Below, piece after piece: positions 36,055 to 50,232 of a stretch of DNA of 64,000 nucleotides. The DNA is from Acidobacteriaceae bacterium. GTDB taxonomy: Bacteria > Acidobacteriota > Terriglobia > Terriglobales > Acidobacteriaceae. The first letter of the stretch is position 1. The number at the start of each line of letters is the position of its first letter. Where the stretch lies: assembly GCA_030041435.1 (NCBI GenBank), contig JASHNW010000004.1, positions 62,001-126,000 of the forward strand, read 5' to 3'. The notes under the pieces were generated by a model. It had not been told where the DNA came from and ran no database searches. It saw only the letters and a program-made list of their open reading frames with translations. The position numbers and the translations under genes were made by a program.

Positions 36055-36070
36055 TCCGACTTTCGTCGGA
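36055..36070 (+). promoter_or_regulatory. Putative response-regulator operator, site 1 (TonB receptor promoter)
   Basis: TCCGAC-tttc-GTCGGA. It ends directly before TTCGCA (36071-36076), a possible -35, followed after 17 nt by TACATT (36094-36099). The same 12 fixed bases with a 4-nt spacer occur only at 43746-43761 and 49600-49615 elsewhere in the window, as far as I could find. Confidence 0.65.
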
Positions 36071-36131
36071 TTCGCAGTGTGCGTGTACCCGCATACATTT
36101 TTAGCCGTGCCGAAGGCAGCGTGTGTTTACG

Positions 36132-36242
36132 GCAATTCCTGAGTTCCTGCGGCCTTTCTGATGCAGTGCAAAGGCCGCCGCTTCCTGAGGGTCGCGTCGA
36201 CTTGAGCGCAGCGGCTTCGGGATAGATCGACTCAGGAATTGC
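36132..36242 (+). other. Large stem structure in the leader of the TonB receptor gene
   Basis: The outer arms GCAATTCCTGAGT (36132-36144) and ACTCAGGAATTGC (36230-36242) pair perfectly over 13 bases. Inside, GCGGCCTTT (36149-36157) and AAAGGCCGC (36170-36178) form a 9-bp hairpin. If transcription starts near 36106, both lie in a 5' untranslated region of about 258 nt. Confidence 0.55.
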
Positions 36243-36363
36243 GATACGCGCTGCAGCGGCGATACGAGATCCGGCCAGGAGCGCCGGCGACCAGGCCCGT
36301 CCGCGGCTCGCGCAATGCGGCGGCATGAGAACGGTTGTGGAACGAATTCAGGAGGCATGAGCC

Positions 36364-39300
36364 ATGCAGGCAAAGAGATGGAATCGATGGGCCACGGGAA
36401 TCGCGGCGATGACGCTGCTGGCGTTGGCGGCGCCGCTGGGGGCGCAGAACACGAATACCGGCGAGATTAAGGGAATCGTGACGGATCCTACGGGCGCGGT
36501 GGTTCCGGGCGTGGCCGTGACGCTCACCAATGTGCAGACTGGTGTGCAGACGAAGGCCGCGACGAACGGCAGCGGGCTGTACGACGTGCCGTCGCTGCTG
36601 CCGGGCACCTACAACATCAGCTTTAAGGCAGCGGGATTCAAGGACACCGTGCAGCAGGGCATCGTGGTGGAAGTGGAGACGATCGGGGTCAATGCCACGC
36701 TGCAGGTGGGGTCGACGTCGCAGGAGGTGACGGTCACGGCGCAGAATCCGCTGATCGAGACGGAAAGCTCGGACCAGCACGAGATCTTCAGCGCGAAGAC
36801 GGTGCAGGATGTGCCGACGGTGGGGGGCATCTGGTACAACGAGCTGACCAACGTGCTGCCAGGTGTGAATCCGGGCGGCCCGGGGGGCGGGCAGGATGCG
36901 TCGGGGCAGGGCGTGGGCATCAATGGGACGCAGGGCTACCTGGGCAACTGGCTGATCGAAGGGTCGGACGCGACGCAGCCGCGCGATGTGAACGCCAGCG
37001 ACAACTATCCGCCGCTGGATGCAATCGGCGAAGTGCAGGCGGTGACGGGGACGTTCGGAGCGCAGTATGGGACGGGCGTGGCGGCGTTCAACGTGATCCT
37101 GAAGAGCGGAGCGAATGCATGGCACGGGTCGGGGTTCGAGTTCATTGAGAACGACGCCTTCGATGCGCTGAACTACTTCACGCCGAAGGGGGAGAAGACG
37201 CCGCTGCGCTGGAACGAGTACGGCGGCAGCGTGGGCGGGCCGATTCGGCACGACAAGCTGTTTTTCTATTTCACCTATCAGCGGAATCCGGCGCGGTCTT
37301 CGTCGGTGTCGACGATGACGGTGCCGACGGATGCGATGAAGGCGGGAAATTTCTCCTCGCTGCCGAACCCGATTTACGATCCCGCTTCGACAACCTGCAC
37401 GGACAACGGGGCCGGGGTGTGCACGCGGACACAGTTCAGCAACAACACGATCAGCACGGCGATGGATCCGGTGGCGCTGGCGATCCAGAAGTATTTTCCG
37501 GAGCCGACCAATCCGAATGCGCTCTACAACAACTATGTGACCGTGGTGACGGAGCCGAGCGTGTCGCAGTGGTACGCGGGCAAGGTGGACTACAACATCT
37601 CAGCGAACAACAAGCTTTCGGGAAGCATTCTGGAATTTCCGATTTCGCTGATTTACAACGCGGACGGCTTTTGCGCACTGGGGTTCGACTGCACCAAAGG
37701 GCCGCGCAACCTGAACCAGGACGGGCAGGTTACGGACACGTGGACGATAAGCTCGCGGACACTGAACGAGGCGCGCATCGGCGCGGTGCGCGAGTTGGAT
37801 AAGTATGTTCCGCCAACCTATAACCAGAACTTCCCGGCCAAGCTGGGCATGGAACCGGCATACGGAGGCAATGCTCCGGGGAATATCTTCCCCAACATCA
37901 CGATCAATGGGGGAGACGGAGCGGGGCAGGTGGGCATCGGGGGCGGCGTGCATGCGGTGCTGGCCGACGGCGCCTATGTGGCGGGCGACATCGTGACCCT
38001 GATCCGCGGACGGCACACCGTGAAAATGGGCGGCGAGTTCGACAAGAGCTATCAGAACTACACAAACTGGGGCGACGTGAGCTCGGGGAATTTCGAGTTC
38101 AACGGCATTGGCACGGCGCAGTTCTGGCCGGGCGGCAACTATCCGAATACGACGGGCGGTTACGGCACGGTGGCGTCGGGCTCGCCGTACGCGGACTTCC
38201 TGCTGGGCCAGGTGTATGGCTGGTATGTGTACGACTATGAGGAAACCGGGGCGCGGATGTGGAACCTGGCGGGCTTCCTGCAGGACGATTACAAGATATT
38301 GCCGAACCTGACGCTGAACCTGGGGATGCGCTATCAGTACCAGTCGGGGTGGGGCGAGGAGCACAACCGCTTCGGGAGCTTCGATCCGACGCTGGTGAAC
38401 ACGGGGCAATACGTGCCGGCGGGGACGCTGGGCGCGATGATCTACGGCGGGCAGGACGGGCGCAACACGATCGAGGACGGAGTGAACGAGTGGGATCCGC
38501 GGCTGGGACTGGCGTGGGCGCCGATGCCGACGTGGTCGATACGGGCGAGCTACGGGGTGTTCGACGCGCCGCGGTCGGCGGAGTCGTATACCGACGGCGC
38601 GCTGGGGCTGGGACTGAATCCGCAGGGGTCGAACGGATACTCGTCGAACTTCACGACGGGCATCCAGTACTATCCGACACCGTGGACGCTGGCCAGCGGG
38701 CCGCCGGCGGGTTCTGTGATCTATCCGCAGCAGTCGAGCTTCAGCAATTCGAAATACAACTACCAGAGCGTCTACTACTACCCGACAAACATGCCCATCG
38801 AGTACTACCAGGAGGCGCTGCTTTCCGTCCAGCATGAGTTGCCGGGGAACATGCTGGTGGACGCCAGCTACGTATTCACCAAGGGCACGCACCTGAATTT
38901 CAACCGCGACATCGACCAGGTGCCGGCCAGCAAGCTGAGCCAGGGAGCGTCGGCCGAGCCATATCCGCAATTCACGTCGATCCAGGGCGCGATCTTCGAC
39001 GGATGGTCGAACTACAACGCGCTGCAGCTGCGCTGGGAAAAGCGGATGTCGCACGGGGTCTCGTTGCTGGTGAACTACGCGTGGTCGAAAACGATGGACG
39101 CGGGAACGAGCAACGGGCACTACGAGACGATCGACGCCTGGCAGAACGCGTACGACACGGCGGCGAACTACGGCCTGTCGCAGCTGGATGTACCGCAGAA
39201 CCTGAACGGCTATGCGACGTGGGAACTGCCCTTCGGCAAGGGCCGCGATATACCGCTGCACGGCGTGGCGGACGAGGCCGCCGGCGGCTGGCGGATAACG

Positions 39301-39750
39301 GGGGTGTTCCAGGCGCACTCGGGGGTTCCGTTTACGCCGGTGGTGGGCAGCGCGGACCAGAGCAACTCGCAGGCGGAGCGCTGCTACTGCGGGTTCTCCT
39401 GGTTCCCGAACGTGGTGGGCAATCCGAACGTCTCGCACCCGACGATCAGCGAATGGTACAACACGGCAGCGTTCGCGGTGCCGGCGGCGAACACGCTGGG
39501 CGACGCGCGGCGCAACATGCTGCGCGGTCCGCAGTGGCGCGACGTGGACTTCAGCCTGGGCAAGACATTCTGGCTGGGGGAGTGGGACGGCAAGAATTAC
39601 AACATGGAGATCCGCGCCGATGCCGACGACGCGTTTAACTACTCTAACTTCGGGCAGCCGAGCTCGGGCGTGGGCGTGGCTGGAGCTGGGGTGATTACGT
39701 ACGCCAACAGCAGCCGGCTGGTGCAGCTGGGAGCGCGGATAACGTTCTGA
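36364..39750 (+). CDS. Oar-like TonB-dependent receptor with N-terminal carboxypeptidase-regulatory domain
   Basis: An outer-membrane protein of 1128 residues. After a signal peptide (TGIAAMTLLALAAPLGAQ), residues ~33-115 are a CarboxypepD_reg beta-sandwich (GEIKGIVTDPTGAVVPGVAV). A plug domain follows (VQDVPTVGGIWYNELTNVLP, later IGEVQAVTGTFGAQYG), and then a long beta-barrel. It ends SSRLVQLGARITF, with the terminal Phe required for barrel assembly. Such proteins import large glycan fragments or other ligands in acidobacteria. AGGAGG lies 9 nt before the ATG. The promoter carries the operator motif shared with the glycosidase operon, and a hairpin terminator follows. Ligand inferred, not proven. 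Confidence 0.93.
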   Translation: MQAKRWNRWATGIAAMTLLALAAPLGAQNTNTGEIKGIVTDPTGAVVPGVAVTLTNVQTGVQTKAATNGSGLYDVPSLLPGTYNISFKAAGFKDTVQQGIVVEVETIGVNATLQVGSTSQEVTVTAQNPLIETESSDQHEIFSAKTVQDVPTVGGIWYNELTNVLPGVNPGGPGGGQDASGQGVGINGTQGYLGNWLIEGSDATQPRDVNASDNYPPLDAIGEVQAVTGTFGAQYGTGVAAFNVILKSGANAWHGSGFEFIENDAFDALNYFTPKGEKTPLRWNEYGGSVGGPIRHDKLFFYFTYQRNPARSSSVSTMTVPTDAMKAGNFSSLPNPIYDPASTTCTDNGAGVCTRTQFSNNTISTAMDPVALAIQKYFPEPTNPNALYNNYVTVVTEPSVSQWYAGKVDYNISANNKLSGSILEFPISLIYNADGFCALGFDCTKGPRNLNQDGQVTDTWTISSRTLNEARIGAVRELDKYVPPTYNQNFPAKLGMEPAYGGNAPGNIFPNITINGGDGAGQVGIGGGVHAVLADGAYVAGDIVTLIRGRHTVKMGGEFDKSYQNYTNWGDVSSGNFEFNGIGTAQFWPGGNYPNTTGGYGTVASGSPYADFLLGQVYGWYVYDYEETGARMWNLAGFLQDDYKILPNLTLNLGMRYQYQSGWGEEHNRFGSFDPTLVNTGQYVPAGTLGAMIYGGQDGRNTIEDGVNEWDPRLGLAWAPMPTWSIRASYGVFDAPRSAESYTDGALGLGLNPQGSNGYSSNFTTGIQYYPTPWTLASGPPAGSVIYPQQSSFSNSKYNYQSVYYYPTNMPIEYYQEALLSVQHELPGNMLVDASYVFTKGTHLNFNRDIDQVPASKLSQGASAEPYPQFTSIQGAIFDGWSNYNALQLRWEKRMSHGVSLLVNYAWSKTMDAGTSNGHYETIDAWQNAYDTAANYGLSQLDVPQNLNGYATWELPFGKGRDIPLHGVADEAAGGWRITGVFQAHSGVPFTPVVGSADQSNSQAERCYCGFSWFPNVVGNPNVSHPTISEWYNTAAFAVPAANTLGDARRNMLRGPQWRDVDFSLGKTFWLGEWDGKNYNMEIRADADDAFNYSNFGQPSSGVGVAGAGVITYANSSRLVQLGARITF

Positions 39751-39787
39751 GGCGGACACGCTGACCCGGAGGCGGGAGCGTACGCAG

Positions 39788-39830
39788 AGCCTGGATGGAG
39801 TGGAGCTCCACTCCGTCCGGGCTTTCTTTA
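39788..39830 (+). terminator. Rho-independent terminator of the TonB receptor gene
   Basis: The arms agcctggatggagtggag (39788-39805) and ctccactccgtccgggct (39806-39823) form a long stem with few mismatches, followed by TTCTTTATT. Confidence 0.85.
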
Positions 39831-39846
39831 TTGCAGGCACATTAGA

Positions 39847-40986
39847 ATGACCCTGCCGTCGGCGGCGGAGATTTCGATGATGAGTGTTTTATTTGTGCGT
39901 GGACCGCGTGCGCGCGTTCGTGTCTGGCTTTTTCTGGGCTTATGCTGCGCCGTGGCGTGTGGGGCGTACGGGCAAACGGCGGAACAGCACCTGGCGCTGG
40001 GAACGCAGAAGCTGGTGCATGGCGACTGCGCCACGGCGGAAAAGGAGCTGGGCGCGGCGCTGGCGGCCGAGCCTTCGCTGACGCGGGCACAAGGGCTGCT
40101 GGGCATCTGCGAAAAGCGTATGGGCCAGCCGGGGGCGCAGGCGCATCTGGAAGCGGGCTTTGCGAAGGTGAGCGAGGCCAGGCTGAAAACCGAAATCGGC
40201 GTGGAGCTGGCCGACTACTACTACCAGCGCGGCGATCTGGACCACACGCTGCCGGTGGTGCGCACGCTGGTGGCGCTCAATCCGGAGAACATCGACATCC
40301 TGTTTTTCGCGCAGAACGTGTACCAGGACATGGCCGACGACACGCTGAACAAGCTGGCGCTGCTGGCTCCGGATTCGCCGCGGATGCAGCAGGTGGTGGC
40401 GGAACACCTGATCAACGAAGGCGATGTGAAGGACGCGACGGACCACTATCGGCAGGCGATTGCGATGGACCAGTATTTGCCGGGGGCGCATTTCGAGCTG
40501 GCGGAGGCGATCCTGGAGGCGAATCCGAACGATGCCGCGGCGCAGTCCGAAGCGCAGAAGGAACTGGAGACGGCGCTGCGCGTGGACGGCGAGAGCGCGC
40601 GCATCGAGTGCGCGATGGGACGGGATGCGTTTTTGCAGGGAAACATCGAAGCGGCGCTGGCGCATTACGAGCGGGCGCGTCAACTGATGCCCGGCAACGG
40701 GGACGCGCTGATGGGGGTGGCACGGATTCTGATGCGGCAGAACAAGGATGCGGATGCGCTGCCGCTGCTGGAGCGGGCGGTGGACGAGGATCCGCTAAAC
40801 GGTGAGGCGCATTATCGCTACGCGATGGCGCTGAAGGCGACGGGACGCACGCAGGAGGCGGAGGAGCAGGTGAGGATGTACCAGACGATCCGCACCTCAC
40901 GCGACAAGGTGGCGCATGTGTACGGGGAGATGAATCGGCGGATGAAGGCTGCGGGGGAGGATGAGCCGGAGGCAAGGCAGCCTTAG
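39847..40986 (+). CDS. Exported TPR-repeat protein
   Basis: A 379-residue protein. A late-starting signal peptide (RVWLFLGLCCAVACGAYGQ) makes internal starts at 39877 or 39880 plausible. From residue ~44 it is built of tetratricopeptide repeats: AEQHLALGTQKLVHGDCATA, VELADYYYQRGDLDHTLPVV, YRQAIAMDQYLPGAHFELAE, MGRDAFLQGNIEAALAHYER, ALPLLERAVDEDPLNGEAHY. About eight repeats are seen. It probably acts in the periplasm as a protein scaffold. It follows the TonB receptor by 96 nt but beyond a strong terminator, so it is likely transcribed separately. Confidence 0.8.
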   Translation: MTLPSAAEISMMSVLFVRGPRARVRVWLFLGLCCAVACGAYGQTAEQHLALGTQKLVHGDCATAEKELGAALAAEPSLTRAQGLLGICEKRMGQPGAQAHLEAGFAKVSEARLKTEIGVELADYYYQRGDLDHTLPVVRTLVALNPENIDILFFAQNVYQDMADDTLNKLALLAPDSPRMQQVVAEHLINEGDVKDATDHYRQAIAMDQYLPGAHFELAEAILEANPNDAAAQSEAQKELETALRVDGESARIECAMGRDAFLQGNIEAALAHYERARQLMPGNGDALMGVARILMRQNKDADALPLLERAVDEDPLNGEAHYRYAMALKATGRTQEAEEQVRMYQTIRTSRDKVAHVYGEMNRRMKAAGEDEPEARQP

Positions 40987-41055
40987 GGGAATCTCCAATT
41001 CACCCGACAGAGCATCCCGCAGCGGCTAAAGCTTACGGTATTTCTTGTGCTTCAC

Positions 41056-41076
41056 GGCACGGCTCGAAGCCGTGCC
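41056..41076. terminator. Bidirectional hairpin between convergent genes
   Basis: GGCACGGCT (41056-41064), loop CGA, AGCCGTGCC (41068-41076). It is flanked by ttcttgtgcttca and ccttgaaaa, the look of a common dispersed 'cacggctcgaagccgtg' element. It lies between the TPR gene and the GH2 gene. Confidence 0.5.
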
Positions 41077-41115
41077 CCTTGAAAACAGCGACTTCAGCAG
41101 AGTCTTGCCAGTACT

Positions 41116-43653
41116 TCAGGCGGTTGTGACGGCCACGGACGCGGGGCGCAGGCCGGGCGAGGTTGCGGCGATTTCGATGGAGCCGGGTGTGGCCGTGGAT
41201 TGCACGATGGCCAGGCAGAGTCCGTGAAAGGCGCGGCGGGTCGATGCTTTGTAGCTTTCGTGGCTGAAAGGGTCGCCGTTGTCGACCCCGATGAGGCGGC
41301 CTTCGCCCTGAACGGAAAAAGCGACGTCGTTGGCGGCATCGGGCACGATGCGTCCCTGCGCGTCCTGAATGGCGACGGCGATGTGGGCGACGTCGCGGCG
41401 ATCGGCGGCGAGGGTGAGGCGATCGGCTGAGAGGCTGACAGCGAAGGGATCGCCCGTGGTCGAGACTTCCTCGATGACGGCGACTTTGCCGTCTTTGGTC
41501 CCCACGGCGCGCAGGGTTCCGGACTGGTACGGAACATCCCAGGAGAGATGCAAGTCGGCGGTGGTGCGCAGGACGCGCGCGCGGGGCGGGTAGTTGCCGT
41601 AGCGGCCTTCCATGCCCAGGCGGGGGAATTCGTAGCCTTTGACGCCGAAGGATTTGCCGTTGAGAAAAAGCTCGACGGTATCGCAATTCGTGTAGCAGGT
41701 GACGGGAAGAAGCGTGCCCTCGCTTCCCTTCCAGTTCCAGTGCGGGAAGAGGTGCAGCATGGGCACAGAGGTCCACTGGCTCTGGTAGAAGTAGTAGCCG
41801 TCCTTGCGGAAGGCGCAGGTATCGAGGACGCCGGCGGGGGCGCCCTTCATGGGCCAGCGCGATTCGCCGAGGTAGTCGATGCCGGTCCACATGAAATCGC
41901 CGGCGACGTAGTCGTGCAGGTCGACGAACTGCCAGAGCTGTTCGGCGTCGATGCGAAGGTTGGAGGGATGGCGGAGCCAGGGCGCGTCGGCTGCGGCTTT
42001 TTGCGGTTCGAGGCCGCGGTATTCGCCGCGGACGCCGCCCATGGCAATGCTCTCTGTGCCGATGAAGCGGCGGTGCGGGAAGGCTTCGCGGTCGATGCTG
42101 TAGTAAAGATCGGCGCGGTTGCGCCAGCGGTCGACGTAGTTGTAGCCGACGATGTCGAGTTCGGCGAGGAACTCGGGACGGGCGCGATTTTCGAGGGGTT
42201 CCGACGCGATCTGATCGCAGGCGACGGTGACGGGGCGCGTGGGGTCTTCAGTGTGGAAGATGGCGAGCAGGGCGCGCAGCGTGGCCGCGCCTTCGGGAGC
42301 GGACTGGTCGGGGACTTCGTTGCCGGCGCTCCACAGCACCACGCTGGGATGGTTGCGGTCGCGATGGATGAAGTTGGTGAGGTCGCGCTCGTGCCACTCG
42401 TCGAAATAAAGGTGATAGCCGTTTTGGATCTGGCCCTTGGGGACGCGCCATTCGTCGAAGGCCTCGTTCATGACGAGAAAGCCCATGCGGTCGCAGAGGT
42501 CGAGGAACTCGGCGGCGAAGGGGTTGTGGCTGGTGCGGATGGCATTGCAGCCCATCTGGCGCAGCGTGGCGAGACGGCGCTCCCAGACACGCTCGGGCAC
42601 GGCCGAGCCCACGCAGCCGGCTTCCTGATGGATGCAGACGCCGTTCAGCTTGAGGTGTTCGCCGTTGAGGAGGAATCCACGATTGACGTCGAAAGCGGCG
42701 GAGCGAATGCCGGCGGGTGTGTCATAGACGTCGACGATGCGATCACCGTCGTGCAGCGTGCTCCGCACGGTGTAGAGATTGGGATGGTCGACGGACCAGA
42801 GGGCGGGGTTGGCGACGGCGAGGTCCTGGACGAAGCGGAAATCCGCGCCGGGGGCAAGGGTGTGGGGTGTTTCCTGCGTGGTGACGGCGCTGCCCTTGTC
42901 GTCAAGCAGCGTGGCCGCGAGGGTTACGGATGCGGCGCGCGCGCGGCCATTCGTGACGGTGGTCTCAACGCGCACGGTGGCCCGATCGGCGGCGACATGG
43001 GGGGCGGTGACGAAGGTTCCCCAGTATGCGACGCGCAGGGGATCGGTTTTCAGGAGCCAGGTGTGGCGATCGATGCCGGAGCCGGAGTACCAGCGGCAGT
43101 TGGTTTGGCGCGAGTTGTCGACACGGACGGCGAGGAGGTTCTCTGCGCCGTAGAGCAGATGGGGCGTGAGGTCGTAGGCGAAGGGCACAAAGCCGTAAGG
43201 GCGCACGCCGAGCGAGTGGCCGTTGATCCAGACTTCGCTGTTTTGGTAGACGCCGTCGAACTCGATGGTGACGATGCGCCCGCGGTCGGCGGCGGGAACC
43301 GTGAAGTGCCTGCGGTACCAGCCGATGCCGGTGGGGAGATAGCCGCCGGGTCCGGAGGACAACTCGCTTTCGGAATACGGGCCCTCGATGCTCCAGTCGT
43401 GGGGAAGATCGAGGGCTCGCCAGGACGCGTCGGCGAAGCCAGGAAGCTGTGCGCCGGCGGGGTCGCCGCGCGTGAAGAGCCAGTCGAAGTCGAAGGAGTC
43501 GCGGGTTCTGGGCGTGGGGTATTCGGGAGGGAGCATGAACTCCGCGCGGCCCAGCCACGGGGATACGGAGAGGGCGGCGGCGCCGCGCGCGGTGTGGCGG
43601 AGCAGATCGCGCCGCGTGAGGAGAAGCCCCGGGTCCCGGTTCGTTTCTTCCAT
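41116..43653 (-). CDS. Exported glycoside hydrolase family 2 (beta-galactosidase-like)
   Basis: An 845-residue protein with a Tat-like signal (LLLTRRDLLRHTARGAAALS). The domains run: sugar-binding jelly roll (residues ~50-200, with WYRRHFTVPAADRGRIVTIEF and GVYQNSEVWINGHSLG), an Ig-like domain, then the TIM barrel. The acid/base is E446 in VLWSAGNEVPD and the nucleophile is E534 in RFIGTESIAMGG. C-terminal Ig-like or invasin-like domains follow (LSADRLTLAADRRDVAHIAV). It likely removes beta-linked galactose, mannose or glucuronate from oligosaccharides. It lies 116 nt after the response regulator gene on the same strand and has its own operator and promoter. The start at 43653 precedes the signal directly. 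Confidence 0.92.
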   Translation of the reverse strand: MEETNRDPGLLLTRRDLLRHTARGAAALSVSPWLGRAEFMLPPEYPTPRTRDSFDFDWLFTRGDPAGAQLPGFADASWRALDLPHDWSIEGPYSESELSSGPGGYLPTGIGWYRRHFTVPAADRGRIVTIEFDGVYQNSEVWINGHSLGVRPYGFVPFAYDLTPHLLYGAENLLAVRVDNSRQTNCRWYSGSGIDRHTWLLKTDPLRVAYWGTFVTAPHVAADRATVRVETTVTNGRARAASVTLAATLLDDKGSAVTTQETPHTLAPGADFRFVQDLAVANPALWSVDHPNLYTVRSTLHDGDRIVDVYDTPAGIRSAAFDVNRGFLLNGEHLKLNGVCIHQEAGCVGSAVPERVWERRLATLRQMGCNAIRTSHNPFAAEFLDLCDRMGFLVMNEAFDEWRVPKGQIQNGYHLYFDEWHERDLTNFIHRDRNHPSVVLWSAGNEVPDQSAPEGAATLRALLAIFHTEDPTRPVTVACDQIASEPLENRARPEFLAELDIVGYNYVDRWRNRADLYYSIDREAFPHRRFIGTESIAMGGVRGEYRGLEPQKAAADAPWLRHPSNLRIDAEQLWQFVDLHDYVAGDFMWTGIDYLGESRWPMKGAPAGVLDTCAFRKDGYYFYQSQWTSVPMLHLFPHWNWKGSEGTLLPVTCYTNCDTVELFLNGKSFGVKGYEFPRLGMEGRYGNYPPRARVLRTTADLHLSWDVPYQSGTLRAVGTKDGKVAVIEEVSTTGDPFAVSLSADRLTLAADRRDVAHIAVAIQDAQGRIVPDAANDVAFSVQGEGRLIGVDNGDPFSHESYKASTRRAFHGLCLAIVQSTATPGSIEIAATSPGLRPASVAVTTA

Positions 43654-43745
43654 GCCGTCGTATCTCCGTCGCACGGTGATTGCGGACCGGCGAAACCAGC
43701 CGGGCCGGCACTCAGGTACTGTACGCGCAGAGGGGCGGGGAATAA

Positions 43746-43761
43746 TCCGACCAAAGTCGGA
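43746..43761 (-). promoter_or_regulatory. Putative response-regulator operator, site 2 (GH2 promoter)
   Basis: TCCGAC-N4-GTCGGA. Read on the minus strand, GTCGGA is followed at once by TTATTC and, 16 nt on, TACAGT (43723-43718), a plausible -35/-10 pair. It lies about 93 nt before the GH2 start codon. Confidence 0.65.
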
Positions 43762-43769
43762 GACGGAAA

Positions 43770-44399
43770 TCAGAGGTGCACGAGGCCGCGTTGCAGGGCA
43801 GCGACGACAGCCTGGGTGCGGTCGGAGACCTGGAGGCGCATGAGAATGACGCTGACGTGGCACTTGACCGTGGCCTCGGTGATGCCGAGATGGCCGGCGA
43901 TCTCCTTATTCGTCTCGCCGCGGGCCAGCAGGGAGAGCACTTCGCGTTCGCGGGCGCTCAGGTCGGAGTCGGGCGTGCGTGAGGCGAGGGCGCGCGAGAC
44001 GGTGGGAGGCAGGAAACGTCCGCCGGCATGGACACGGCGCAGCGCGTCGATGAGGGCCTCGTGGGGCATGCCTTTGATGACGTAAGCGCGGGCGCCGGCT
44101 TCGATGGCCTGGTAAATGTCTTCGTCGCCCTCATAGGTGGTGAGCACGACGAAGCAGGCCTTCGGGTGGCGCATGCGGATGGCGCGGATGGCGTCGACCC
44201 CGCTCATCTTCGGAAGGCGCAGATCCATCAGCGTGATGTCGGGCTGGTGCTGCTCGAAGAGATCGATGGCTTCTTCGCCGGAGCCGCACTGGGCGACGAC
44301 AGTCATATCGGGGCGGGCGTTGATGATGGCGACGATGCCGATGCGCACGATGGGGTGATCGTCGACGACGAGGAGTTTGATTTTCGCGGCGGTTTCCAT
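43770..44399 (-). CDS. NarL/FixJ-family response regulator
   Basis: A 209-residue protein. The receiver domain is residues ~7-122, with acidic pair D13-D14, phospho-acceptor D59 (ITLMDLRLPKMSG), the T/S switch in VVLTTYEG, and K109 in AYVIKG. A LuxR-type helix-turn-helix is at ~145-205 (DLSAREREVLSLLARGETNK, then EIAGHLGITEATVKCHVSVI). It lies 3 nt after the histidine kinase gene and is surely its partner. It most likely binds as a dimer to the TCCGAC-N4-GTCGGA sites near its neighbours and activates them; that assignment is inference. Confidence 0.93.
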   Translation of the reverse strand: METAAKIKLLVVDDHPIVRIGIVAIINARPDMTVVAQCGSGEEAIDLFEQHQPDITLMDLRLPKMSGVDAIRAIRMRHPKACFVVLTTYEGDEDIYQAIEAGARAYVIKGMPHEALIDALRRVHAGGRFLPPTVSRALASRTPDSDLSAREREVLSLLARGETNKEIAGHLGITEATVKCHVSVILMRLQVSDRTQAVVAALQRGLVHL

Positions 44400-44402
44400 G
44401 CT

Positions 44403-47393
44403 TCAGACGCCCATCATGGCGCTGTGCGCGCCGGAGACTTTGCGGGGGATTCGGACGGTTAAGTCTGTGCCTTTGCCGGGGGCGCTGTCCAGATGGAAAT
44501 CGCCGCCGACGGCGTGCACGCGCTCGCGCATGCCGACCAGGCCGTAGTGGCGGTCCTCGCGCGCGAATACGGCTTCCGGCTCGAAGCCTGCGCCGTTGTC
44601 GCTGACCTGCAGGGTGAGCTCGCTGCGGGCGAAGCCGACGCGGACATCGATGCGCCTGGGATGCGCGTGCAGCACGGCGTTATAGACCGCCTCGCGCGCC
44701 ATCATCATAAGCTCGTGCGTGGCCATTTGGGTCAGCGAGAAAGGCTTGCCGGTAACTTCGCAGACGACGGGTATGCCGGATTCCGCGCTGATCTGGCGCG
44801 CCATGCCGGCGAGCGTGGTCTCCAGCATTTTGCCGGAGGGCTGGCCCTGGCGGAGATTCCAGACGGCCTGGCGGGCCTCGTCGATGGTGGTGCGGACCTG
44901 ATGGCGGGCGTGCTCGAGGAGCTCCTGAGGAAGCGAGGTTTGCTCTTCGCGCAGGCTGGCCAGGGCTTCGAGCAACGCGGAGATGCCGGCGCATCCCTGA
45001 ATGACAGTGTCGTGCATCTCGCGCGCGAGGCGGGCACGCTCGTCGAGGACGGCCTCGAAACGCATCTGCATTTGCCAGATGCGGAAGCGATAGGCGGCGA
45101 GCACGGCGGCGGCGAGCAGCAGCAGACACAAGCCGACAAACCACCAGGTGCGCCAGAAATGGGGCTTCTGGACGATGGGGAGGGTGAGCTGGGAAACGGC
45201 CTGGGGGCGGTTGATCTCAAAGGCGGCGACGCGGAATGTGTATTTGCCGGCGGGGAGGTTGGTCCACGAAGCGACACGGCGCGGGGATGCGTCGCTCCAG
45301 TTTGCGTCGAAGCCGTCGAGGCGGTAGCGGAAACGCATGCCTTCCTGGGAACGCAGCAGGATGGGGGACCAGGAGATTTCGAGGCGGGTGGCGCCGGGCG
45401 CGAGCAGGATGGGCTGCGCGGGATCGACGCTGCGTCCGTCGATGGCGACGTCGTCGATGACCACGGGGGGCAGAGGCAGGGGCGGCGTGGTTTCGTGGGC
45501 GATGTGGATGGGGCCCTTGTTGCTGGGGAACCAGACGCCGTCAGCGCCGTCGATGGAGCCGGAGGGCTGACGGCCGCCGTAGATCTGGGTCGTCTCGACT
45601 TCGTCCGAGACGGCGTAGAGGGTGAGGGAGAGATGGCGCGAGGGATCGCCGGCGGCCTCGTCGAGCTCCTGGCGGCGCAGCAGCGAGATGCCGTTGGGGC
45701 CGCTGAGCCACAGGCCGCCTTTGCGGTCTTCGACGATCTGATAGATGCTGTTGCTGGCCAGGCCCTGGGCGGTGGTGTAGTGGATGAGGCGGCCGTCCTT
45801 CCAGCGATAGAGTCCGTTGCTGCGCGTGCCGAACCAGAGGCCGCCGTCGGAGTCTTCGTGGATGGACCAGACTTTTTCTTCGGCGAGCGCGGCGGTGGCG
45901 GGACCGTGGACGAATGCGCCGGCGCGCAGGTGGCTGAGGCCGCGGTCGGTGCCGATCCAGATGCCGCCGTTGCGGTCTTCGATGAGGGCGCGGGTGCTGA
46001 AGTAGGCGAGGCCGTTGCGCATCCGGTAGTTGACGAAGGCTCGGCCGTTCCAGTGGCTCACGCCTTCGTCGGTGCCGAACCACATGCTGCCGTCGCGGCT
46101 TTGCAGAATGACGCGGATGAAGTTGTTGACGAGGCCGTCGCGCACGGTGAGGCGCAGGATTTTTCCATGGTCGATGCGGATGAGGCCGTCGCCGTCGGTG
46201 CCAATCCAGAGCGCGCCGGAGCGGTCGCGAAATACATTGCGGGCGTGCAGATTGGGAAGCTGCGGATGCGGCCAGAGGCGGGCGACGCCATTGCGCACCT
46301 GAAAGACGTCAGTCGAGACGACCCAGAGGGTGCCGTCGCGATCCGCGTAGAGGGTGCCGAAGTCGGAGTCCGCGGCCTGGGGCAGCGGGACGATGCGGAC
46401 CGGAGTGCGCGTGAGGCGCAGCATGCCGGCCTGGGTGCCGATCCAGAGGTTCTTCTCATCGTCTTCGAAGACATTGAGGACGGTATTGCTGGGCAGGGAG
46501 TCGGGCGCGGTAATGGCGGTGACGTCCTGGCCGGCAAAGCGGCGGATGCCCTCGCCGATGGTGCCCACCCAGAGCGAGCCGTCGGAGAGCTGGCGCAGGA
46601 CGCGGACGGTCTGCGTGATCCCCTGCACGCGCTCGAAGCGCTGTGCGCCGGGGCGCAGGCGATGCAGGCCGGAGACGGTGCCCACCCAGATGGAGCCGTC
46701 GCGGGTTTCGAGGATGGACTTGACGCGGTTCTGGCTGCCGCCGCCCTGGAGGGTGTATTCGCGCACCTGGCCGCGATCGAGGCGCAGCAGACGCGATCCG
46801 CCGACCCAGAGGCCGCCGAGGTGATCTTCGGCGATGGCGTGGACGGCGATCGAGGGGACGTTGCCGACGCCGTCGACGCGCACCAGACGACCAGAGCTGA
46901 AGCGGAGCAGGCCGTTGTCGGTGCCGATCCAGAGCGTGCCGCCGCGATCTTCGAAGAGGGCGCGGACGAAGCCGTCGCTGAGGCCGTCGGCGGCGCCGTA
47001 GGCGCGGAATTTTCCGTTTTGGAAGCGCACGAGGCCGCCGCCTTCGGTGCCGATCCAGAGGCTGCCGTCGCGGGAGACGAGGAGGGCGAAGACGCTGTTC
47101 TCCTCGAGCTGGGGCGTGTTTCCGTGATCGAAGAGGGTAAAGCGCGCGCCGTCAAAGCGAAGCAGGCCGCCGGTGGTGCCGATCCAGAGATAGTGGTCAG
47201 GCGTTTGCGCGAAGGCCTGGACGGTTTGCTCGGGAAGGCCATCCTGGGTCTGCCACATCTTGCGCGTATAGCCGCTGGGCGCTGCTGCCTGAGCGGCCGC
47301 GCAGGCGGCGAGGCCCAGCGCGGCGAGGCACACGCAGAGACGCGCGGCGATGCGGTGCGGGTTCGCGGGGCGGACCATGGCGGTGGCGTTCAC
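44403..47393 (-). CDS. Sensor histidine kinase with 14-blade double-propeller sensor (Reg_prop, Y_Y_Y, HisKA_3)
   Basis: A 996-residue protein. An N-terminal signal or anchor (AARLCVCLAALGLAACAAAQ) is followed by fourteen Reg_prop-type units marked by LWIGT-like strands (GSLWIGTEGGGLVRF, GTLWIGTDNGLLRF, and so on), enough for two seven-bladed propellers. Next come a Y_Y_Y Ig-like domain (~residues 640-735, FRYRLDGFDANWSDAS, TNLPAGKYTFRVAA), one TM (WWFVGLCLLLLAAAVLAAYRF), a HisKA_3 domain with phospho-acceptor H794 (LAREMHDTVIQG), and an HATPase (YNAVLHAHPR, VSDNGAGFE). Its architecture matches the sensor half of Bacteroidetes glycan-sensing hybrid systems. It starts 15 nt after a glycosidase gene. 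Confidence 0.93.
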   Translation of the reverse strand: MNATAMVRPANPHRIAARLCVCLAALGLAACAAAQAAAPSGYTRKMWQTQDGLPEQTVQAFAQTPDHYLWIGTTGGLLRFDGARFTLFDHGNTPQLEENSVFALLVSRDGSLWIGTEGGGLVRFQNGKFRAYGAADGLSDGFVRALFEDRGGTLWIGTDNGLLRFSSGRLVRVDGVGNVPSIAVHAIAEDHLGGLWVGGSRLLRLDRGQVREYTLQGGGSQNRVKSILETRDGSIWVGTVSGLHRLRPGAQRFERVQGITQTVRVLRQLSDGSLWVGTIGEGIRRFAGQDVTAITAPDSLPSNTVLNVFEDDEKNLWIGTQAGMLRLTRTPVRIVPLPQAADSDFGTLYADRDGTLWVVSTDVFQVRNGVARLWPHPQLPNLHARNVFRDRSGALWIGTDGDGLIRIDHGKILRLTVRDGLVNNFIRVILQSRDGSMWFGTDEGVSHWNGRAFVNYRMRNGLAYFSTRALIEDRNGGIWIGTDRGLSHLRAGAFVHGPATAALAEEKVWSIHEDSDGGLWFGTRSNGLYRWKDGRLIHYTTAQGLASNSIYQIVEDRKGGLWLSGPNGISLLRRQELDEAAGDPSRHLSLTLYAVSDEVETTQIYGGRQPSGSIDGADGVWFPSNKGPIHIAHETTPPLPLPPVVIDDVAIDGRSVDPAQPILLAPGATRLEISWSPILLRSQEGMRFRYRLDGFDANWSDASPRRVASWTNLPAGKYTFRVAAFEINRPQAVSQLTLPIVQKPHFWRTWWFVGLCLLLLAAAVLAAYRFRIWQMQMRFEAVLDERARLAREMHDTVIQGCAGISALLEALASLREEQTSLPQELLEHARHQVRTTIDEARQAVWNLRQGQPSGKMLETTLAGMARQISAESGIPVVCEVTGKPFSLTQMATHELMMMAREAVYNAVLHAHPRRIDVRVGFARSELTLQVSDNGAGFEPEAVFAREDRHYGLVGMRERVHAVGGDFHLDSAPGKGTDLTVRIPRKVSGAHSAMMGV

Positions 47394-47408
47394 TGGAGAT
47401 TGTAGGCG

Positions 47409-49547
47409 CTAACGCTGTACCGTCACTGCGTACCAGGTGGTTGCGGGTGTGCCGATGGGGATCTGCCACGCGTCGGCGTTGTGGGTTGCGGGGATGGGTT
47501 GGCCGAGGGGCCGGCCTGCTCCGTCGAGCGGCTGGGCGAGGACGGCGGCAGCGGGCGCGAGGCCACGCAGCACGATGCGTCCGGTGACCGGCTCGATGAG
47601 GGTGGGCGAGCTGCCCCACTGTGCGAGGCCGGTGTGCCGCGGATTCCATTCCATGCCGGTATTCACGGCACGCGCTGCGGCGGTGAGGAGCAGCTTCGAG
47701 CTGGTGGCGATGGGCTGCGCGTCGAGCGTAGTGAGGACGATTGCGCTGAAGGGATTGCTGACCGCGGCGGAGAGATTCGTGAGCGGCTTGCTGTGCGCGG
47801 CGGAGAAGCCGACGAGCGCCTGGGTGCGGGGCGTGTCGATGGTTACCTGACCTGAATCCGGCTTCAACCAGTACCAGGCGAGCTGGGCCGTGTCCGAGAC
47901 GATGGGCGCAGGCTCGGTGGCGGCGGGGAATTTTCGCGTGGGCCCGTCGTCGAGCGAGTCGATGCGCGAACCGTGCTCGAGGGGGATCCAGAGGGGAAAG
48001 CCGGGCGTGAAATATGGGCGGTCTTTCTCCGACAGGCGGTAGCTGTCGAAGACCTGGTCTTCGGAGTAGCGGCGCAGCACGGTTTCGCGTGCGGGGCTCA
48101 CGTCGCCGCGCAGGAACAGGAGCGCGCCGGCGGCGAGTTCGGGCATCTTGATGGGGTCGAGAGAAATGTCGAAGGGGTCGCCGATGTACGGTTTCCAGTT
48201 CGCGTCTTTCTTTGGCTCGAAGGTGTACCAGAGGATCGCGTCCCAGTCCTCGAGATCGCCGTAAGCGGCGAGGATGGGGATCTGTTCGGCGCCGTAGTCG
48301 TTGGGGAAGGCCTCATTCACTTCGCTGACGGTGTATGGTTTGCCGGCCTCGGCGGAGCGCGACATCTCGACGACGGTGGAGTTGAGGGGGTCGTCCACCA
48401 TGGGCGACTTCACCTTGCGCTCCCAGGGATGCTGCCAGTAGTCGTGGCCGTCGACGGCGTCGAAGGAGGAGGTGGCCAGCAGCAGCGGATAGCCGGTGTT
48501 GTGGTGGCTGTGGTCGGCTGTGGCGAGAATGAGGCAGCGGATGTTCAGATCGTTGCGGAGAAAGTCGCGCATGTAGCTGAAGTAGCCGCTTTCGAGCCAG
48601 AGATAGAAGCGCGACTCGACGTCGAAGCGATCTTTCGGCGCGGCGCCGACTTCAGGCCCGGCGAGCAGTGGGATGGGATCGCCGGTCTGGACGCCGGTTT
48701 CGCTGCGCAATGCACTCATTTCCGCGGCGGTTGAGTTCTTTTGGAGCCAGCCGTTGTAGAGGCCGTCGAGCTCTCGGGCGTAGAACGGGGAAGGCATGGA
48801 GAAGCCCAGCCAGATGGCGTTTTCGTTGTTGATTTCGACGATGGCGACGGCGGGATCGTTGGCGTAAGAGCGCCCGGTGTAGGGATTGACGTGGGTGAGG
48901 AGCTGGCGTGCGTATTCCTTCTGCAGGTCGATGAGCGTCTTGTCGAAGAGGCTGATGCCTTTGGCGCCTTCGTGAAGCTTGTCCGCGTCGGCGACGCCGT
49001 CGCCGGCTTTGAAGGGGCGGCCGACGAGCAGATTGAAGTCGATGTAGATGCCGCGCTGCTCCAGCTGGGCGAGGAAATAATCTTCGCGGTCGAGCTGCGC
49101 GGGATCGAGGGCGCGGGTGTTGTCGCCGGCGGCGATGAGGCCGCGCGGGACGGGCAGATCGAGGAACTGGAGGCGCACGCAGTTGACGCCGTAGCGGGCG
49201 AGGGTCGCAGCCCAGAGGGGAGCGTCCTGTTTGGAAGGGATCATGGTGGAGCCGGGGCTCCAGTCTGTGATGTTGACGCCCCAGAGGCGGATGCGATGGC
49301 CGTCGCCGGTGACGAGATGGCCGGCGGCCGCGTGGATGAATCCATGCTTGCCGGCGGGAGCATCGAGCACGAAGGAGACGTCGGCCGGGGAATGAGCGGC
49401 GAGCGCGGCGCGATGATCGATGACGAAGGGGGCGAAAGTGGGAGCGGGCAAGTTGGAGGGGAGATTTTGCGCCGCCGCGGGCAGCGTTGCGACGAGCGGC
49501 GATGCGACCAGGGCGATGAGCGCGAAAGACAAGGATGCGTTCTTCAA
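47409..49547 (-). CDS. Exported clan-A-type glycoside hydrolase (GH5-like), family not assigned
   Basis: A 712-residue protein. A signal peptide (LSFALIALVASPLVATLPAAAQ) leads into a cellulase-like TIM barrel: RLWGVNITDWSPGSTMI, LARYGVNCVRLQFLD. The probable acid/base is E242 in VEINNENAIW. The probable nucleophile is in YTVSEVNEAFPND, E409 or E412. After the barrel (~residue 500), C-terminal beta-rich domains follow. The start is an unusual TTG at 49547, supported by GGAGG 6 nt upstream; no in-frame ATG fits. It is the first gene of the operon GH - kinase - regulator - GH2. The substrate polysaccharide is unknown. Confidence 0.8.
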   Translation of the reverse strand: MKNASLSFALIALVASPLVATLPAAAQNLPSNLPAPTFAPFVIDHRAALAAHSPADVSFVLDAPAGKHGFIHAAAGHLVTGDGHRIRLWGVNITDWSPGSTMIPSKQDAPLWAATLARYGVNCVRLQFLDLPVPRGLIAAGDNTRALDPAQLDREDYFLAQLEQRGIYIDFNLLVGRPFKAGDGVADADKLHEGAKGISLFDKTLIDLQKEYARQLLTHVNPYTGRSYANDPAVAIVEINNENAIWLGFSMPSPFYARELDGLYNGWLQKNSTAAEMSALRSETGVQTGDPIPLLAGPEVGAAPKDRFDVESRFYLWLESGYFSYMRDFLRNDLNIRCLILATADHSHHNTGYPLLLATSSFDAVDGHDYWQHPWERKVKSPMVDDPLNSTVVEMSRSAEAGKPYTVSEVNEAFPNDYGAEQIPILAAYGDLEDWDAILWYTFEPKKDANWKPYIGDPFDISLDPIKMPELAAGALLFLRGDVSPARETVLRRYSEDQVFDSYRLSEKDRPYFTPGFPLWIPLEHGSRIDSLDDGPTRKFPAATEPAPIVSDTAQLAWYWLKPDSGQVTIDTPRTQALVGFSAAHSKPLTNLSAAVSNPFSAIVLTTLDAQPIATSSKLLLTAAARAVNTGMEWNPRHTGLAQWGSSPTLIEPVTGRIVLRGLAPAAAVLAQPLDGAGRPLGQPIPATHNADAWQIPIGTPATTWYAVTVQR

Positions 49548-49599
49548 CAGGCGCCTCCAGGGGCCGCACCCATTGAATGCGAAATCGCCGCGGAGCGAA

Positions 49600-49615
49600 T
49601 CCGACTTCCGTCGGA
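49600..49615 (-). promoter_or_regulatory. Putative response-regulator operator, site 3 (operon promoter)
   Basis: TCCGAC-N4-GTCGGA, with an extra base pair on each side (A/T). On the minus strand GTCGGA is followed by TTCGCT and, 16 nt later, TTCAAT. The extended string GTCGGATTCGC is identical to that of site 1. It is 53 nt before the TTG start at 49547 and 92 nt before the divergent gene at 49708. Confidence 0.65.
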
Positions 49616-49707
49616 TGGCACGGCCAGAAGCGGGCGATAGGATTGCGGGTACCGGAACGCAGAGCCGCCGCGCGCGCGGAGGAGAGAGGAATGGGGTTGA
49701 GCGCACA

Positions 49708-50232
49708 TTGACGGAATTGCCACAGAAACGGCGTGGGCCGGCAGCGGCAAGCGTTGCCGTCGAGCCTATCGGCGTGATCCTCATCCTGTCGTCGAAGCTG
49801 GAGCGGCTGGGCTGGAGCATTGTGGTGGAGAGCCAGGCGGATATGAAACTGCTGGGCCAGTTTGCCACGCTGAACGGAGCGCTCGATTTCCTGGAGGGGC
49901 ATGGGGCCGACGTAGCTCTGGTGGATGAGGCCATGCTGACGCCGAAGCGGTGCGAGGCGCTGCGCCGGCTGGCTGCCGGCGGCGGGCCACGGATGCTGCT
50001 GGTGGCGCGGCATCCGATCGACGACGCGATTCGGCAATCGCGGTACGGGTTCGCCAGCTCGTGGCTGCTAAAGGGGATTTCGGCGGAGGATTTGCTGGCC
50101 GCGATTCGGGAGAGGCCGGCGGAGGCCGGCGGAGCATCGGCTGGCGACGGCGCAAAGCAAGCCACGGGCCTCCCGGCTCGATCCCGGGGCCAGTTACCAA
50201 TAGACGGTGGCGGAATTTATGAGGATGTATGA
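49708..50232 (+). CDS. Receiver-like protein, degenerate and without output domain
   Basis: About 174 residues. It reads IGVILILSSKLERLGWSIVV, then LNGALDFLEGHGADVALVDE and GPRMLLVARHPIDDAIRQ, then SWLLKGISAEDLLAAIRER. This follows the beta/alpha order of a CheY-type receiver with the conserved Lys (LLKG). The N-terminal acidic pair is missing (SSK) and the expected phospho-Asp strand is VALVDEAM. No DNA-binding domain follows, only a Gly/Ser-rich tail. The start is uncertain: I use the TTG at 49708; a GTG near 49774 is possible. It is divergent from the glycosidase operon and 44 nt before a PP2C phosphatase. It could be a truncated regulator. Confidence 0.55.
   Translation: MTELPQKRRGPAAASVAVEPIGVILILSSKLERLGWSIVVESQADMKLLGQFATLNGALDFLEGHGADVALVDEAMLTPKRCEALRRLAAGGGPRMLLVARHPIDDAIRQSRYGFASSWLLKGISAEDLLAAIRERPAEAGGASAGDGAKQATGLPARSRGQLPIDGGGIYEDV

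Follow-up and report, generated by a model that had tools for sequence, protein, structure and literature searches.

The stretch of an Acidobacteriaceae genome analyzed here, 64,000 nucleotides in length and referred to below as the window (the entire genome comprises 5,769,352 bases), encompasses a glycan locus in which a 16-bp inverted repeat, TCCGAC-N4-GTCGGA, occurs in three intergenic positions. Comparison with related genomes indicates that this repeat is very probably the operator of a NarL-type response regulator encoded within the same locus, which would act as a class II activator of a small, self-reinforcing regulon for galactan uptake. The genes of the locus are the following.

36364-39750, + strand: TonB-dependent, Oar-like outer-membrane receptor (Pfam CarboxypepD_reg and OMP_b-brl_4)
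39847-40986, + strand: TPR protein, downstream of the receptor (Pfam; 18 of the 32 sequences examined below have a member of its family)
41116-43653, - strand: glycoside hydrolase family 2 (GH2) protein (Pfam; nearest to the GalA/GalB beta-galactosidase models, below their curated cut-off)
43770-44399, - strand: NarL-type response regulator, the proposed activator (Response_reg, PF00072, and GerE, PF00196, both above cut-off)
44403-47393, - strand: sensor histidine kinase (Reg_prop propeller repeats, Y_Y_Y, HisKA_3 and HATPase_c)
47409-49547, - strand: putative glycosidase with a weak likeness to clan GH-A; it opens the proposed glycosidase-kinase-regulator operon
49774-50232, + strand: receiver-like protein, start codon uncertain (no helix-turn-helix, HTH, detected; weak UhpA-type match)

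The three sites and the promoter-like elements read from the sequence next to them are as follows.

36055-36070, + strand: site 1, TCCGAC-TTTC-GTCGGA, with TTTN polarity toward the TonB receptor gene
36071-36076, + strand: -35-like TTCGCA adjoining site 1 (conservation past the site limited to its first bases)
36094-36099, + strand: -10-like TACATT, at offset 39 from the start of site 1
43746-43761, - strand: site 2, TCCGAC-TTTG-GTCGGA on the - strand, past the regulator stop codon and ahead of the GH2 start
43740-43745, - strand: -35-like TTATTC adjoining site 2
43718-43723, - strand: -10-like TACAGT for the GH2 gene
49600-49615, no strand assigned: site 3, TCCGAC-GGAA-GTCGGA on the - strand toward the glycosidase gene, between two divergent candidate promoters
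49594-49599, - strand: -35-like TTCGCT adjoining site 3
49572-49577, - strand: -10-like TTCAAT for the operon 49547-43770
49638-49643, + strand: -10-like TAGGAT, on the other side of site 3 and facing the receiver-like gene

The exact repeat is found at 36055, 43746 and 49600, with no fourth copy in the window; an earlier note on this DNA had reported the same, and extension of the scan to the whole genome turned up no stray exact copies. Given the base composition of the window, 0.0068 sites are expected by chance per window and 0.61 per genome, and the backwards control pattern has one exact match in the genome, compared to three for TCCGAC-N4-GTCGGA. All three sites are intergenic and are spread over 13.6 kb, whereas three points placed uniformly in this genome would fall within such a span with a probability of about 1.7e-5. 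The hexamer was chosen after the fact, from among 40 perfect palindromes of this 6-4-6 form in the window that are built of 36 distinct hexamers, with TCCGAC alone seen three times and two others twice. The earlier note also described the promoter-like pairs TTCGCA/TACATT, TTATTC/TACAGT and TTCGCT/TTCAAT, with spacings of 16-17 nt, and the sequence GTCGGATTCGC shared by sites 1 and 3 when read toward their genes; both descriptions hold. The extended pattern TCCNAC-N4-GTNGGA-N21..23-TAnnnT has three matches in the genome, one per site, and its backwards control has none; the match at site 3 is the rightward promoter. Among the matches listed, eight one-mismatch sites elsewhere in the genome all have spacers that differ from TTTN/NAAA.

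Across genomes, the presence of the site follows that of the regulator. In a sample of 100 genomes that includes the one studied here (12 of the genus and 88 others), the exact site occurs in 8 of the 12 genus genomes, with 27 sites altogether, compared to 5 sites in 5 genomes for the backwards control, and 23 of the 27 sites are located at gene sets of this kind. Close orthologues of the regulator (75-100% identity) are found in the same eight genomes (8 of 8), and the four site-free genomes have none, their best matches being only 53-54% identical. The orthologue in one of the eight, G008 (L055 8381-8999, G008:C98), is split over two frames, with 76% identity over residues 90-209, and is either a pseudogene or an assembly error; in this genome, the operator sites persist on another contig. 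The remaining 4 of the 27 sites (G001:C12, G004:C18, G008:C16 and G011:C345) lie on separate contigs and have atypical spacers, and are not counted as part of the regulon. Exact matches in G011 and G008 (L064 5067-5103 and L066 9288-9318) are embedded amid more GTCCGAC/GTCGGAC units, unlike the regulon sites.

The same association is apparent in a survey of 398 genomes of the family, for which the lists of genomes with the oriented site, TCCGACTTTNGTCGGA, and with the regulator (E<=1e-80) were matched by genome handle and treated as one draw. The oriented site is present in 32 of the 398 genomes (7 for the backwards control) and the regulator in 62, such that the regulator accompanies the site in 27 of 32 genomes, compared to 35 of the 366 genomes without it (site-by-regulator cells 27, 5, 35 and 331; Fisher p 5.9e-20, a value that overstates the case because the genomes are not independent). 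The 27 genomes span several genera, and in 21 of them, compared by eye, site and regulator share a contig. Such co-occurrence, at the level of sequence, supports the earlier note's choice of the regulator at 43770-44399 as the candidate protein for these sites.

The relationship between site and regulator can be followed further in 80 loci fetched by similarity to the regulator, 42 with at least 66% identity (7 of which are contigs of genus genomes already included) and 38 with less. The 42 contain 23 exact sites in 17 loci; across all 120 arrangements of the hexamer letters in the same loci, the mean is 0.275 with TCCGAC included and drops to about 0.08 when the remaining 119 are taken by themselves; the runner-up reaches 2. 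No exact site is present in the 38 low-identity loci. A looser rule, allowing up to 3 mismatches to TCCGACTTTNGTCGGA and requiring TAnnnT at offset 37-39, was applied to 24 of the 25 high-identity loci that lack an exact site and gave 38 hits in 19 loci, whereas 39 permuted controls averaged 0.26 hits and reached 5 at most, and 18 low-identity loci gave a single hit; the other 5 of the 24 (L085, L098, L101, L113 and L116) had none. In these more distant relatives, the operator appears mostly to have drifted rather than vanished. Operators of paralogous regulators were sought as well: in 23 loci (L031-L053, 2.1-3.6 kb), the recurrent palindromes occupy corresponding positions in conserved, most likely coding, sequence and were rejected. 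Among 7 loci with more distant regulators (48-61% identity), no de novo 6-4-6 hexamer was common to more than two. The de novo palindromes near 10 cyanobacterial regulators include AT-rich repeats, with TTTCTA in 6 of the 10.

Promoters and targets were compared in 32 sequences, the window itself plus 31 loci, of which the genus contributed 10 and the set of 42 the other 21 (7 duplicates and 14 loci without a site within one mismatch were omitted). These sequences contain 68 sites with at most one mismatch, three of which fall inside open reading frames called by a simple gene finder: L057 5781 in an over-long start, L059 15379 in a 63-aa call, and L133 16658, which has an atypical spacer and is probably a chance match. 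Read toward a gene, the spacer is usually TTTN. When strands are picked by this spacer alone (67 strands), 61 of them have TAnnnT at an offset of 37-39 nt from the start of the site, compared to no more than 3 for other three-base windows on the same strand and 2 of 67 for the same offset on the opposite strand, where the maximum is 6 of 67, at 61-63. The proportion is 49 of 55 once similar flanks are collapsed; the -10 element is absent in 6 of the 67. A gene start lies within 450 nt ahead of the TTTN direction in 59 of the 67. The -35 hexamer adjoins the site and is poorly conserved past its first bases. Assuming that transcription starts about 7 nt past the -10 element, the operator center would be near -42, which is the geometry of a class II activator at a sigma70-type promoter; the activator arrangement proposed in the earlier note thus appears to be borne out by the conserved -10 spacing.

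NarL-type regulators are known both to activate and to repress transcription, and the same protein, bound to the same site, could mainly repress, with the glycan signal causing derepression. The site adjoins the -35 region, and a protein bound there could also block the polymerase, but promoters of unrelated genes keep the same distance between the site and the -10 element, and their -35 hexamers are poor. Because of these two features, activation fits better, and we regard repression as unlikely.

The genes that follow the sites suggest the substrate. Most of the 68 sites are upstream of TonB receptors, the glycosidase of the 47409 type, GH2, GH53, GH35 or the receiver-like protein (the Pfam scans covered a single representative of each new family), and the comparison of orthologous promoters, which the earlier note had put forward as a check, finds the site recurring before orthologous genes in relatives. 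The genes most widely shared by the 32 sequences are those of the regulator family (28 of 32) and the kinase family (27 of 32), which lends little support because regulator similarity was itself the basis for fetching or keeping 21 of the 32 sequences. The regulon of the relatives takes in GH53 and GH35 enzymes beside GH2, with the family of the GH53 protein found in 14 of the 32 sequences (one member checked in Pfam). GH53 enzymes are endo-beta-1,4-galactanases and GH35 and GH2 enzymes are beta-galactosidases, families that act on galactan; sites in front of all three therefore point to beta-1,4-galactan as the substrate.

Several observations weigh against the proposed regulon or parts of it. 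Sites with up to two mismatches are not in excess, either in the window (4, including the three exact ones, compared to 4.8 expected) or in the genome (234, compared to 430 for the backwards control). The signal accordingly consists of the three perfect copies and their clustering, and we claim no further degenerate sites in this genome, given that the two-mismatch scans are at the chance level. Outside the genus, the bare 12-base pattern is found in 13 of the 88 genomes and the backwards control in 29 of 88, so that signal is told from background only by the TTTN spacer and by linkage to the regulator. Among the family genomes that carry the regulator, 35 of 62 lack an exact TTTN site, and five genomes have the site without a regulator match at the threshold (G008, with its frame-split gene, G104, G185, G303 and G365), about the number expected from chance sites. 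For 43 of the 67 TTTN strands, there is a gene in the opposite direction as well, which TTTN does not exclude. Site and regulator are on different contigs in 6 of the 27 family genomes that have both, and in G008. Finally, a search of the organism's own genome finds no GH53, so the galactan assignment rests on the relatives and the GH2 enzyme, and the organism may take up galacto-oligosaccharides released by others.

The separation of site and regulator in these seven genomes could indicate that the site is the target of a different carbohydrate-gene regulator whose own gene lies elsewhere, with the kinase-regulator pair merely marking the locus, and the wide sharing of the regulator is partly built into the choice of sequences. 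Nevertheless, the sites track this particular regulator in the 398 genomes and are missing around regulators of lower identity, and the displaced regulator gene of G008 is itself preceded by a one-mismatch site, all of which renders a different regulator quite improbable. The background level of single exact sites outside the genus would also be compatible with chance palindromes, and six-base stems with four-base loops resemble short hairpins, such as those of intrinsic terminators. A dispersed repeat is a further alternative: the relative G078 (e.g., L006) has five exact copies on five contigs, all with the spacer AGGA or its reverse complement, which probably are an unrelated repeat of this type. 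For the sites of the locus, an origin of this kind seems extremely remote because they are conserved before orthologous genes, with a polar spacer and a fixed distance to the -10 element, and permuted hexamers remain at background.

The opposite strand has a gene ahead in 43 cases, 10 of which show TnnAAT at offset 38, and at 12 of the 68 sites, including window site 3 (49600), -10-like elements lie in both directions. We tentatively consider, as a rather doubtful possibility, that the 4-bp spacer is a polarity code, with TTTN, read toward a gene, marking the direction of the main promoter, and with the symmetry of the arms allowing the same dimer also to drive a back-to-back promoter that has a -10 of different build (TnnAAT) at the same 38-nt offset. 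If so, a single 16-bp site would serve two divergent operons for glycan degradation, and their unequal strength would be built in.

The preferred reading, in which the repeat is the operator of the 43770-44399 regulator, translates into the following mechanism. The Reg_prop/Y_Y_Y sensor of the kinase (44403-47393) would sense an oligosaccharide, most likely derived from beta-1,4-galactan, and phosphorylate the regulator. A dimer of the regulator would then occupy TCCGAC-N4-GTCGGA, an operator recognized by comparison of genomes, with one protomer per hexamer, and, given the observed geometry, would contact RNA polymerase as a class II activator. Site 1 would control the TonB receptor, site 2 the GH2 beta-galactosidase, and site 3 the glycosidase-kinase-regulator operon, perhaps together with the divergent receiver-like gene. 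The presence of both the kinase and the regulator in the site 3 operon would provide positive feedback, and the whole would amount to a small regulon for galactan uptake, self-contained and self-reinforcing.

The earlier note had described the targets as a TonB receptor and two glycosidase promoters, a description that stands for the receptor and GH2; the product of the second gene (47409-49547) is only weakly glycosidase-like and has no Pfam or NCBIfam family. A 14-member profile of its family weakly matches GH5 mannanases (best E 0.022), and 3 of the 14 members weakly match GH42 (best E 0.01). The predicted structure, of low confidence (mean pLDDT 51.6), resembles glycosidase barrels, with 30 PDB matches at E<=0.001 to glycosidases (mostly GH5 but also GH35, GH140 and GH164) and TM-scores of at most 0.36. 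We call the protein just weakly clan GH-A-like because TM-scores, pLDDT and profile matches are all weak, and regard it as a probable, uncharacterized glycosidase. Together with its homologues, it makes up a conserved family, about 700 aa in length, for which no Pfam model scores above cut-off and which may represent a new glycoside hydrolase family tied to galactan loci.

Beyond what the earlier note described, site 3 also faces, in the other direction, the receiver-like gene (49774-50232), which diverges from the glycosidase operon and shares its operator; homologues of this gene in L056 and L084 are likewise downstream of a site. The encoded protein could be a phosphate sink or modulator. 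No SusD was detected in the scanned proteins, 10 from the window and 9 from the loci, and the TonB receptor present is of the Oar type. The presumed 5' leader of the receptor gene (36106-36363) is long, about 258 nt. Near 36130 and 36231, it carries the arms of a long-range inverted repeat, and it folds somewhat more stably than shuffled sequences do (z -2.08). An Rfam search of window positions 30000-52000, which include this leader, yielded no match.

Judged by comparison of sequences, the system is real, conserved and functionally interpretable, with the operator, promoter geometry, regulator and targets all readable across many genomes. In the genus, the regulator has between 35 and 57 matches per genome (E<=0.001, receiver-only matches included), and with so many such genes per genome, the operator rule makes the plant-polymer regulons of soil Acidobacteria predictable. 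Among the open-access literature matches listed, no operator is described for an acidobacterial glycan-sensing two-component system, and the closest parallels come from other bacteria.

The best solved relatives of the regulator are VraR, NarL, ChrA, DevR and DesR. The DevR operator is positioned at -35. DevR/DosR of mycobacteria and the NarL-type OsdR have palindromic operators, several in the case of OsdR, clustered at the regulator gene; the Streptomyces OsdR operator is a 16-nt palindrome that is clustered around its own gene (PMC5069765). The arms, however, differ (AGGGCCGATCGGCCCT for OsdR). The signals of those systems are hypoxia and dormancy. ComA of Bacillus subtilis activates from an inverted repeat of hexamers for which a 4-nt spacer is optimal (PMC4797271). 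The ComA box thus resembles the present site as a 6-4-6 inverted repeat upstream of the polymerase site, and ComA itself is a response regulator with a tetrahelical HTH. In contrast, the ComA hexamer is TTGCGG rather than TCCGAC, and ComA mediates a Gram-positive quorum response; ComA promoters have an additional direct repeat, for which no search was made here.

Functionally, the hybrid two-component systems (HTCS) that regulate polysaccharide utilization loci (PUL) in Bacteroides offer the nearest parallel. These regulators, for example, BT4673 for pectic galactan, exert local control over a glycan locus (PMC3243724). The likeness extends to a Reg_prop/Y_Y_Y sensor and to a locus that combines glycosidases with genes for outer-membrane uptake. 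Unlike the Bacteroidetes HTCS, in which kinase, receiver and AraC-type HTH are combined in one polypeptide and the operator is a direct repeat, the present system has a HisKA_3 kinase and a regulator with a GerE HTH that are separate proteins encoded by adjoining genes, and a 6-4-6 inverted repeat. The acidobacterial system works like a hybrid PUL regulator and is not a member of that family: it is a parallel built from separate parts.

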